Source of the DNA: Thermococcus guaymasensis DSM 11113 | GTDB lineage: Archaea; Methanobacteriota_B; Thermococci; Thermococcales; Thermococcaceae | DNA length: 64,000 bases | Assembly (NCBI RefSeq): GCF_000816105.1 | Contig: NZ_CP007140.1 | Coordinates: 186,001 to 250,000 of the forward strand | Direction of reading: 5' to 3' | Shown: positions 31,587-34,196 of the stretch, one piece after another | Position numbering within the stretch: position 1 is the first letter of the stretch | How the letters are laid out: the number at the start of each line of letters is the position of its first letter | Position numbers and translations under genes: made by a program | Notes under the pieces: generated by a model | Databases searched by the model: none | Told to the model about the DNA's origin: nothing | The model's input: only the letters and a program-made list of their open reading frames with translations

Positions 31587-31970
31587 TCAAGATTTTTCCC
31601 AGACTGCATCCTCCTCGAACTTCCTGACTTCTTCCGAGGCACCAACCCACACCACTATGACCGGCTCAACGGTTATCATGCCGTCTTTTATCATAGGTTT
31701 GATCTCACAGATTGCACGCTCTATTTTGTAACCCCTATCCACAACCTCAACGACCACAGGCAGATCCGTTGAGAGTCTCATAACGTCGGCGGAGTGGACA
31801 CGGCTCTTCTTTCCGAAGCCGTAGATCCCCCTATAGACAGTTGCCCCCGCTATCCCCATCTCACGAAGTTTCTCAACTATAGCCTTGTAGAGAGGTTTTC
31901 CCTGCCAGCGGTCGCTTTCGCCGATGTAAATCTTGAGGCGAAGGGTATTCCAGTGTTCAACTTCAACCAT
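31587..31970 (-). CDS. DUF190 family protein next to CrcB
   Basis: A 127-residue protein of the DUF190 family, a ferredoxin-like/PII-like fold usually encoded beside fluoride channels. Recognisable are [38 protein letters not shown] and [16 protein letters not shown]. It is presumed to regulate or support CrcB, but no biochemical role is established. GGAGGTGAAAC precedes its ATG, only four bases after the crcB stop, so the two are one transcript. Confidence 0.88.
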
Positions 31971-31974
31971 AGTT

Positions 31975-32346
31975 TCACCTCCGGGCAAGAAGGAAACCTG
32001 TAAACACCAAGGCAATTGTTATTATAACGTTTGCCGCGATGTTCAGGCCTGCTATAATGTATTCTCTCTCCCTCAGAAGGGAGAAGGTCTCATAGGAAAA
32101 GGTGGAGAACGTGCTCAGCGCCCCGCAGAAGCCAGTCCCGAGAAAGAGCCTCCATTCGGCTGTAACATCAACACCCCAGAATAGCAATCCGTAGAGGTAA
32201 CCGAGGATAAAACTGGCTATGCTGTTGACCATGAGCGTTCCCACTGGAAAGTCCCTGTAAACAGGAAGCAGTCCCGAAAGATAGAACCTTGCAAGCGCAC
32301 CAAGGGCACCGCCAAGCATTATTGCGGTCGCTATCCTGAGGTTCAT
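31975..32346 (-). CDS. crcB: Fluoride channel CrcB/Fluc
   Basis: Small membrane protein (123 residues, four helices) that dimerises head-to-tail into a fluoride-specific channel exporting toxic F-. Motifs: [13 protein letters not shown] in helix 1, [16 protein letters not shown] in helix 2 with the conserved Asn, and [18 protein letters not shown] in helix 3, which holds the Phe residues and the break that binds central sodium. ATG at 32346 behind AGGTGAG. The 95-base gap before it contains a weak TATA-like TTATTAAG (about 32404-32411), so it may have its own promoter as well as read-through from the fluoride riboswitch 1.8 kb upstream. Confidence 0.93.
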
Positions 32347-32441
32347 CTTGCTCACCTAACCTCGTGCTCTTTTGTATTTCTTCGGCATGCACTAGTGAGT
32401 CTTAATAAGATTTCAGGCAACCTATAGGGAAAGTTGGGTAC

Positions 32442-32861
32442 TCATTTCTCGAAGTTTAGATAGTAGCGTATCTTCTCCTCGACTTCACCGTAGTCCCTCT
32501 TTGGAAGCCCCAACCTCTCCCGAAGTCGTTTGTTCTCGGCTATCATTCCCGAAAGCTGTATTGCAAGGTTCTGATTATCAATGGCAATGTAGTACGTCTT
32601 AAACTTTAGGGGGGACCACTTCCCCTCCAGCTCGTAGAGTTCCTTTTTAAGCTGAGATATCTCCTCTCTGAGCCTTTCGAACGTTTCCTCGTTGGCTCTG
32701 GGGTCATCTTCGAGATAGCCGTGAAGGAGGATTATTCTGATTGCCTCCTCCTCCCGGAAGCCATAGCGATCGCAGAGCTCCCCAATTTTTTCAAAGGTAT
32801 CATCTGGAATTTTGAACGTTATTCCTCGCCGGCTCCTCTTTGGTCTCACCTTAATTTTCAT
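32442..32861 (-). CDS. Coiled-coil protein with RHH-like N terminus
   Basis: A 139-residue basic protein. Residues 1-50 read KIKVRPKRSRRGITFKI, then PDDTFEKIGELCDRYGFREEEAIRIILLHGYL, the pattern of a strand followed by two helices as in ribbon-helix-helix DNA-binding proteins, but no family match is claimed. From residue 55 to the end it is largely heptad-type helix with many Glu, Lys and Arg. The gene overlaps the preceding coiled-coil gene by ATGA, so the two products are probably made together. It lies between the toroid protein and crcB. Confidence 0.6.
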   Translation of the reverse strand: MKIKVRPKRSRRGITFKIPDDTFEKIGELCDRYGFREEEAIRIILLHGYLEDDPRANEETFERLREEISQLKKELYELEGKWSPLKFKTYYIAIDNQNLAIQLSGMIAENKRLRERLGLPKRDYGEVEEKIRYYLNFEK

Positions 32862-33160
32862 TTCTTCGTGGCCTCCAGCTCTGATCTAAGCCTTTTGTTT
32901 TCCTCGCTGAGCTCTTTCCGAAACGCCATAAAGAACTCCTTGTCACGCTTTGCGGTCTCCTCGAACTCGCTTAGTTCGATGTAACTGGTTCTCATTTCAA
33001 CGAGCCTTTTCTCAAGCTTCTCCCTCTGCTCGATGAGAAAACGGAGCTTTAAGATCCTTAAAGTTCTTTCAAGCCCCTCTAAATCCCGGAATCTGGCCTC
33101 TATCTCGCGTTTGTCCTTCCTTATTTTGGTTAGCTCTTCGCTAGTGACCTCTATCTCCAT
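32858..33160 (-). CDS. Small coiled-coil protein
   Basis: A 100-residue protein that is almost entirely charged amphipathic helix: repeated hydrophobic heptads with Glu/Lys/Arg (for example RDLEGLERTLRILKLRF and FRKELSEENKRLRSELEA). No catalytic motif, signal or membrane segment. It probably dimerises with itself or with the overlapping downstream product, which has a similar helical tail. It starts 48 bases after the toroid protein gene with GGGGGAG before its ATG and no TATA box, so it belongs to the riboswitch-led transcript. Confidence 0.6.
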   Translation of the reverse strand: MEIEVTSEELTKIRKDKREIEARFRDLEGLERTLRILKLRFLIEQREKLEKRLVEMRTSYIELSEFEETAKRDKEFFMAFRKELSEENKRLRSELEATKK

Positions 33161-33208
33161 GGAAAGCTCCCCCGGTTTTCTGCCTTGAATTTTCCTTACC
33201 GTTACCCC

Positions 33209-34075
33209 TCAAAGGAAGCGATCCATGAAGTCCAGGACTGCAAGAGCTCTATATGTGTTCTGGAAGTTTGAGATGCCGAGCTCAAGGCTCCTCCTGAAGC
33301 CGCCGTTGGGGTTCTGGAGCTGGCGTATGAACCAGACGTGCCTTCTCGGGCAGGTTGGAGTTTCATTCTGAAGTTCCAGTCCCCTGGTGGCATAGAAGGT
33401 CGGTTCAAGGTACGGCGGAAGGCTGTAGGGCACTTCGGTAAAGCCGCCCCAGTCACCGCAGAGCTCGCAGTTCCTGAAGTGAGGGCTCTTAGGCGGTCTG
33501 TAGCCGAGGGTGTAAAGGGTGAAGAGGACCTGATATGTCATGGTGGTAGTGGGCCGCTTAACCCCATAGCCATTTCCGTTGCGGAACTTCATCACGAACT
33601 CCCGTATGGCATCTTTCTCATCTGGGTTAAACTTCAGACCAATCTGGTTGAAGGCCTTGGTGACCCAGTATGTTGCTTCGAGGGGTGTCGCCGTCCCGAA
33701 CTCCTCGCTTCCGCCGAGACCAACGGCAAATTTGCCTTCAGCGGGGTTGTACTTGGTGAAGACTATCTCGCTTTTCTCTCTCGCCATGTCTTTTGCCCCA
33801 AGCAGGGCGAGGCCTTCGAGGGCCATCGCTATTGCAACCACGGCCGTCTGCGGCTGAATTGCGCTGACCAGGAATTCGATCGTTTTTTCCTTCTCGGGGA
33901 ACTCCAGGTCGAGGAGTTTGTAGATTTTGATTGCGTAGTAGGTGTCGTTCACGTTGGTGTCGTTGAGTACGCTCACGAAGCAGTATCCACCGTCCTCGTG
34001 GCGCCTCTCCTCAACGTAGCGCAGGGCGGCGTCAACATTAACATAACGTCTAAGTCTGTAAAGCTTCGAGCCCAT
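33209..34075 (-). CDS. Alpha/alpha-toroid (prenyltransferase/terpene cyclase-like) protein under a fluoride riboswitch
   Basis: A 288-residue soluble protein built of repeating helical hairpins of the prenyltransferase beta-subunit/squalene cyclase fold: repeats contain Gly-Gly-Phe/Tyr turns such as HEDGGYCFVSVLNDTN, AEGKFAVGLGGSEEFGTATP, NGNGYGVKRPTTTMTY and NPNGGFRRSLELGISNFQNTY, each followed by a Tyr/Ala-rich helix. Two CxxC-like cysteine spots (FRNCELCGDWGG, ETPTCPRRH) might bind zinc. The DxDD motif of cyclases is not seen, so enzymatic class is open. A good GGAGG site precedes the ATG, with a fluoride aptamer just upstream. Confidence 0.75.
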   Translation of the reverse strand: MGSKLYRLRRYVNVDAALRYVEERRHEDGGYCFVSVLNDTNVNDTYYAIKIYKLLDLEFPEKEKTIEFLVSAIQPQTAVVAIAMALEGLALLGAKDMAREKSEIVFTKYNPAEGKFAVGLGGSEEFGTATPLEATYWVTKAFNQIGLKFNPDEKDAIREFVMKFRNGNGYGVKRPTTTMTYQVLFTLYTLGYRPPKSPHFRNCELCGDWGGFTEVPYSLPPYLEPTFYATRGLELQNETPTCPRRHVWFIRQLQNPNGGFRRSLELGISNFQNTYRALAVLDFMDRFL

Positions 34076-34102
34076 TCTACCGCCTCCTAAGCTTTTAGCG
34101 GA

Positions 34103-34166
34103 GAACAGGCGTCATCAGCCCTTTCGGGCGGTTCGGGCTCGAAGCCCCGGGCGGACGCCATCGCCC
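34103..34166 (-). ncRNA. Fluoride riboswitch (crcB motif aptamer)
   Basis: The minus strand matches the fluoride aptamer element by element. Stem 1: GGGCG (34166-34162) with CGCCC (34153-34149). Pseudoknot: GGCGTC (34159-34154) with GACGCC (34013+: 34113-34108). Stem 3: GCCC (34129-34126), GAAA tetraloop, GGGC (34121-34118), followed by the invariant TGATG (34117-34113). The conserved GATG after stem 1 is present. One extra hairpin (34147-34135, GGGCT/AGCCC) is inserted before AACC. In the known Thermotoga petrophila aptamer the same parts come in the same order. It lies 27 bases before the toroid gene and its transcript start is predicted at 34166. Confidence 0.92.
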
Positions 34167-34184
34167 AACCACCTCTCAGGGAAG

Positions 34185-34196
34185 TGTTTTAAAACA
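34185..34196. promoter_or_regulatory. Palindromic TATA box of the fluoride riboswitch transcript
   Basis: TGTTTTAAAACA is a perfect 12-base palindrome. On the minus strand a start about 24 bases from its centre falls at 34166, the first base of the aptamer. On the plus strand it could serve the arginase-fold gene at 34252, though TTAAAA at 34215-34220 is another candidate there. Confidence 0.55.

Follow-up and report, generated by a model that had tools for sequence, protein, structure and literature searches.

The single fluoride riboswitch aptamer of Thermococcus guaymasensis DSM 11113 lies on the minus strand ahead of five genes, the first encoding an alpha/alpha-toroid protein and the fourth the fluoride exporter CrcB. 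We analyzed this locus within a 64,000-nucleotide (nt) stretch of contig NZ_CP007140.1 (assembly GCF_000816105.1, positions 186,001 to 250,000), hereafter the window, whose numbering is used below. From the sequence of this locus and its relatives, the main fluoride-controlled gene is probably that of the toroid, not the neighboring crcB. The genes follow one another on one strand with short gaps, in the order originally predicted: the toroid gene, 48 nt, a coiled-coil protein gene, an ATGA overlap, an RHH-like protein gene, 95 nt, crcB, 4 nt, and a DUF190 gene. The features are:

34187–34194, minus strand: TATA box TTTTAAAA of the riboswitch–toroid promoter, from sequence and conserved spacing, with a predicted transcription start site near 34166
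34099–34174, minus strand: fluoride aptamer RF01734 with P1, insert, P2, and pseudoknot strands GGCGUC and GACGCC, from cmscan
34127–34148, minus strand: insert plus P2 5′ strand, GGGGCUUCGAGCCCGAACCGCC, the proposed anti-start strand (duplex of −39.8 kcal/mol at 37 °C)
34063–34087, minus strand: Shine-Dalgarno (SD) sequence GGAGG (34087–34083), AUG (34075–34073), and codons 2–5, complementary to the insert; codons frozen, region paired in the minimum free energy fold
33209–34075, minus strand: alpha/alpha-toroid protein, 288 amino acids (aa), PF00432 at 2e-10, the proposed primary riboswitch target
32858–33160, minus strand: coiled-coil protein, 100 aa, without a Pfam match; an optional member, present in about 60 loci
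32442–32861, minus strand: RHH-like/coiled-coil protein, 139 aa, an optional member; aCcr1 NF053762 at 4.6e-5, below cut-off, and synteny
32401–32413, minus strand: BRE/TATA-like element (BRE, TFIIB recognition element) AAATCTTATTAAG upstream of crcB, with a similar element in related loci
31975–32346, minus strand: crcB (Fluc fluoride channel), with PF02537 (2.7e-29) and TIGR00494 both above cut-off
31587–31970, minus strand: DUF190 protein (PF02641, PII-like), Pfam 1e-39, with PF00543 at 7e-5 just below cut-off

The RHH label of the original prediction is weak, the sole match being that to the NCBIfam model aCcr1 below its cut-off, and its coiled-coil protein remains without a family.

The covariance search matched RF01734 to 34174–34099 over the full length of the model (positions 1–64) at 49.4 bits (E 1.1e-10 for the window), above the gathering cut-off of 34 bits, and both pseudoknot strands are present, bearing out the complete minus-strand aptamer that had been read from the sequence. 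The whole 1.92 Mb genome has no second copy. The aptamer lies 23 nt ahead of the toroid ATG, with crcB further downstream, as expected of an element in the 5′ untranslated region (UTR). The distance from TATA box to P1, on which the original prediction had set the transcript start, is 22–27 nt in 76 of 83 related loci and places that start at the aptamer, where the transcript probably begins. An extension of P1 (GAGAG with UUCUC) was dropped because this spacing puts the transcription start after GAGAG. Reading by eye, we detected no U-tract in 34100–34076, and hence no intrinsic terminator of GC hairpin plus U-tract. For the riboswitch of Thermococcus kodakarensis, which a 2021 paper describes as the sole natural riboswitch of archaea established experimentally, fluoride binding and a fluoride-dependent change are reported (Speed et al. 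2018, via PMC8241225).

Across 94 Thermococcales genomes, the aptamer was detected in 88 and the toroid gene in 90, normally one of each. Among 86 toroid loci taken out for inspection (G and L numbers label genomes and loci of this comparison set), the aptamer core lies immediately upstream of the toroid gene in 83, an association well above what chance would give, so that toroid homologs are far from devoid of it, in keeping with the original prediction. The other three are L157, which keeps an aptamer with a changed letter relative to the scanned pattern, and L131 and L163, which have lost it. In L131 (G012), the 5′ half of the aptamer is gone and the toroid gene is intact, and crcB was not found in that genome; in L162 (G076) and L163 (G080), the toroid gene is broken by stops or truncated and crcB is intact, the aptamer also being gone from G080.

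What follows the toroid gene is less constant. Synteny upheld the full five-gene order in 52 loci, but downstream content varies: 17 loci have the toroid gene, crcB, and DUF190 without the coiled-coil/RHH pair, which is thus optional, and 13 have the toroid gene with coiled-coil or RHH-like genes and no crcB nearby, some of these being contig ends. L084 (2008–2688) and most Thermococcus loci carry between the toroid and coiled-coil genes a DUF6062 protein with CPxC...CxxH motifs; it was set aside as a core member, being absent from the window locus, and a genome search gave no match, though the control for that search also matched nowhere. In the genus labeled g3, crcB is found at another place in the genome, 67 kb off in G004, for example, with no second aptamer adjoining it, and the single aptamer remains with the toroid gene, as it does in G054 and G064, where crcB was not found. 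The set ending in CrcB and DUF190 is therefore not a fixed unit, crcB being unlinked or missing in g3 and a few Thermococcus. Since the aptamer stays beside the toroid gene when crcB is relocated, it tracks the toroid gene and not crcB; on this comparison, the riboswitch is that of the toroid gene and does not belong to a crcB operon.

Toroid-type aptamers contain an insert between P1 and P2 (GGGGCUUCGAGCCCGAA in the window), followed by the P2 strand CCGCC, and the two together are complementary to the ribosome-binding site, the AUG, and codons 2–5. In the window, GCUUCGAGCCC (34145–34135) pairs with GGGCUCGAAGC (34073–34063), and CCGCC (34131–34127) pairs with GGCGG (34084–34080). Over 84 leaders, the insert:start duplex has a median energy of −38.5 kcal/mol, attained by no shuffled start, and at least 9 of the 11 start-region pairs are formed in 74 of the 84. 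By computation, then, a conserved helix that excludes the aptamer covers the SD sequence and the AUG, forming a predicted translational platform; the original prediction, which saw the aptamer correctly, overlooked this start-sequestering insert. A short CUCC:GGAGG hairpin was rejected as the sole platform, the insert:start helix being much stronger.

The strongest test of the platform is a comparison of codon constraint within 83 toroid genes. All 79 that encode glycine at codon 2 use GGC, 95% of serines at codon 3 are TCG, and all 78 lysines at codon 4 are AAG (GGC TCG AAG in the window), whereas no other position of these genes has a modal codon share above 0.71 if fourfold, 0.67 if sixfold, or 0.96 if twofold degenerate. 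Freezing of synonymous sites is seen nowhere else in the toroid gene, and at codon 5, the end of the pairing, the third base is free. Because the compared codons belong to one set of genes and one tree, common ancestry alone does not account for the constraint. Synonymous recodings of codons 2–5 that pair equally well with the insert make up no more than 5% in 72 of 82 genomes. Changes that support the pairing are found in L141 (ACUGCC with GGCAGU) and in g3, whose P2 strand CCGCCUCCC faces the SD sequence GGGAGGCG or GGGAGGUGG; in L091, L129, and L130, the insert is absent and the region of the start codons is divergent and non-canonical.

A second leader type points the same way. Fifteen Thermococcus genomes have a second aptamer (L164–L178) heading a hydrogenase-type operon (PF00146 NADHdh and PF00361 Proton_antipo_M), formate hydrogenlyase being a known fluoride riboswitch target (PMC2864571). 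These leaders lack the insert, and their start region, GGAGGUGACGCC..GAACCCGGAAG, is instead complementary to the aptamer 5′ strand UUCCGGGCGAUGGCGUCC, with involvement of the P1 5′ and pseudoknot strands. Duplex energies here have a median of −29.8 kcal/mol, which 0.9% of shuffles attain, and in L177 both sides are changed with the pairing preserved, a compensatory change. Because these are two different solutions to one problem, the comparison speaks for start sequestration as the general rule in Thermococcales fluoride leaders. Just upstream of the second aptamers (L164, 2613–2864, and equivalents) is a small coiled-coil ORF (open reading frame) containing ...LAIKLAGYIAENR..., which resembles the C terminus of the RHH-like protein of the window.

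We consider it likely that the leader is a fluoride-ON riboswitch acting at the level of translation and dedicated to the toroid gene, and that the toroid is a conserved fluoride-response protein of the Thermococcales. The proposed mechanism is built entirely on computation (aptamer, complementarity, codon constraint, and alternative fold), from which we infer its ligand logic, the control of translation, and polarity onto the following genes. Transcription would start at the aptamer, as TATA spacing suggests. Without fluoride, the insert and P2 5′ strand are computed to pair with the SD sequence, the AUG, and codons 2–5, so that P2 would be broken and the start hidden. Mg-fluoride, as in the known fluoride aptamer, would stabilize P1, P2, and the pseudoknot, the insert would refold to its own UUCG-type hairpin, and the freed start would allow the toroid protein to be made. 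Downstream genes without their own promoter would follow by polarity or read-through, with crcB and DUF190 here probably self-promoted as well. Because the start helix consumes the P2 5′ strand, it excludes the fluoride-bound aptamer, which predicts a translational ON switch.

Computed folds favor the hidden start. For the window leader, the advantage of the start-paired over the start-free fold is 20 kcal/mol at 37 °C and falls to 8.6 kcal/mol at 80 °C, a temperature at which 71 of 83 leaders keep codons 1–4 mostly paired. Several points nevertheless weigh against the proposed switch, among them that these 80 °C energies are extrapolated and that the pseudoknot, Mg, and co-transcriptional folding are left out of them. 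Seven loci (L116, L117, L123, L126, L128, L179, and L182) have altered inserts that pair weakly, and most of them retain the start. The start side is nearly invariant, so that classic covariation is sparse. The linkage of aptamer and toroid gene across the order is in part common descent. Finally, the toroid is tied to fluoride physiology by its regulation only, and the fluoride response at the window locus is a prediction.

The toroid protein matches PF00432 at 41 bits against a cut-off of 26.5. Its AlphaFold model (pLDDT 85.9, pTM 0.86) has as best solved Foldseek matches the beta subunits of Rab geranylgeranyltransferase (RabGGTase) and farnesyltransferase (FTase), with a TM-score of about 0.7, and squalene-hopene cyclases, which supports the prenyltransferase fold assigned from the sequence; the family profile matches FTase beta at 7e-11, with alignments that span only some of the repeats. 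The DxDD acid motif of class II terpene cyclases and squalene-hopene cyclases is absent from the 288-aa, single-domain sequence, and the matching repeats, with LEPTFYA and SNFQNTYRA, appear to lack the D-x-C...H zinc triad when motifs are read by eye rather than by residue-level structural alignment; on these grounds, neither known chemistry is supported. That the protein binds or modifies isoprenoids, lipids, or proteins in a way that helps against HF/F− is our best guess, held with low confidence. A zinc site of C203, C206, C242, and H246 was rejected as not essential because 23 of 83 sequences lack both C206 and C242. The two cysteines are both present or both absent in nearly all 83 homologs, and H246 is invariant; a disulfide or an optional or shared metal site is possible.

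Toroid relatives are also found behind aptamers outside the order. In G099, from another family of the class, crcB and DUF190 are followed by an aptamer (35.7 bits) heading genes for a dynamin-like GTPase, a small protein of 101 aa, and a toroid, this aptamer-headed set lying at 5988–3113 of locus L183. In G229, from another archaeal phylum, an aptamer (44.8 bits) directly precedes a toroid gene matched at 9.5e-39 by a profile built from the Thermococcales and G099 sequences; in this genome (L221, L205, and L216), two successive aptamers, the first weak and below cut-off, head an MFS transporter and a toroid protein. Other toroids in that phylum have no aptamer nearby, and since most of the distant matches of a phylum-wide toroid profile search have none in their loci, not every such toroid is fluoride linked. 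A history in which the aptamer first served crcB and the toroid gene entered between the two, as a bystander, in the ancestor of the Thermococcales would fit the aptamers often seen directly before crcB in other archaea and the degenerate toroid genes beside intact crcB in G076 and G080, but it is improbable in the face of a platform built into the toroid coding sequence, a toroid–aptamer linkage that outlasts relocation of crcB, and the relatives in G099 and G229.

The original prediction held crcB to be only partly under the riboswitch, with a weak promoter in the 95-nt gap, and this is supported by the BRE/TATA-like sequence GAAATCTTATTAAG there. Such an element occurs 35–100 nt before crcB in 29 of the 45 loci whose gap is 60 nt or more, compared with 17 of 468 coding segments. 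In T. kodakarensis, the primary transcription start site of TK0514 (crcB) lies in the stretch that separates it from TK0513, as mapped by authors who in 2014 found the crcB RNA "surprisingly" upstream of TK0513 (PMC4247193); the same toroid/crcB arrangement is present in G023. A single set headed by the riboswitch and ending in CrcB and DUF190 is not borne out in that form, the platform covering the toroid start only and crcB apparently having its own promoter in this lineage; where the gap is less than 60 nt (25 loci), crcB is probably co-transcribed.

Those 25 loci would also suit control of transcription, by termination or attenuation of the whole operon including crcB and DUF190, after the bacterial paradigm in which fluoride riboswitches often overlap terminators (PMC2864571), as would the five same-strand genes with short gaps and the 86-nt leader RNA seen in T. 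kodakarensis (PMC4247193). This is made very improbable by the window sequence, which shows no hairpin with a U-tract from aptamer to ATG, by conserved complementarity that aims at the start codon region, by the crcB promoter elements here and in the long-gap loci together with the TK0514 start site, and by the unlinked crcB of g3. That the insert is a mere stabilizing hairpin for hot habitats, its start complementarity incidental or due to another constraint on codons 2–4, is most improbable of all: although it self-folds as a GGGC-UUCG-type hairpin, and L126 and L128 carry a different hairpin there with the start unchanged, the synonymous freezing spans codons 2–4 and stops where the pairing stops, the pairing extends along the 5′ strand of P2 as far as the SD sequence, the loci without an insert have non-canonical codons, and the start of the hydrogenase-type leaders has another complement, with a compensatory change in L177.

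Elsewhere in the window, a minus-strand ORF at 36649–41805 encodes a 1718-aa reverse-gyrase-like protein with an intein-like block within its topoisomerase part.

If the translational switch of the toroid gene is as proposed, it would answer the 2014 puzzle of an aptamer preceding TK0513 instead of crcB and would name an uncharacterized toroid as a conserved fluoride-response factor. It would also offer a readable switching mechanism, operating near 80 °C by way of a long GC helix that reaches into the coding sequence; a small set of reporter mutants would be enough to check it in a hyperthermophile amenable to genetics. Codons 2–4, being part of the switch, would matter to users of the leader as an inducible expression system. 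More broadly, and with our judgment leaning slightly against, Thermococcales fluoride riboswitches could form a distinct class in which strands of the aptamer serve as the anti-start element, a device that arose two or more times (insert and P2 strand before the toroid gene, P1 5′ and pseudoknot strands before the hydrogenase operon), with the toroid a new exporter-independent fluoride-resistance protein common to several archaeal lineages.

The "novel gene set" of the original prediction is only partly new: the T. kodakarensis aptamer ahead of TK0513, not crcB, was published in 2014, with the TK0513/TK0514 arrangement remarked on (PMC4247193), and that riboswitch has been published as an inducible system (Speed et al. 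2018, AEM 84 e02306-17, via PMC8241225). Our literature search turned up no description of the insert, the start-hiding platform, the rule that links aptamer and toroid gene across the order, or the relatives outside it, part of which Speed et al. 2018 may contain. The TK0513–TK0514 leader has the same arrangement and is almost certainly the same element, its transcript having been detected, but the available text of PMC4247193 calls the location surprising and gives neither a platform nor an order-wide rule.

The window element shares with other fluoride (crcB) riboswitches of RF01734 the aptamer sequence, the P1, P2, and pseudoknot architecture, the position in the 5′ UTR, and the expected ON logic; it differs in that the P1–P2 insert and P2 strand would double as the anti-start strand, the proposed target is the toroid gene, and the predicted archaeal platform is translational and not a terminator. 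With translational riboswitches that mask the SD sequence or start (bacterial fluoride, adenine, and preQ1) it would have in common the ligand-dependent exposure of the start, whereas its masking strand lies within the aptamer and pairs several codons into the coding sequence. The toroid itself has the alpha/alpha-toroid fold and the GGF and TYxA repeat motifs of prenyltransferase beta subunits and squalene-hopene cyclases (PF00432) but, at about 15% identity, is a single domain of 288 aa with no partner subunit seen and with catalytic residues unmatched.

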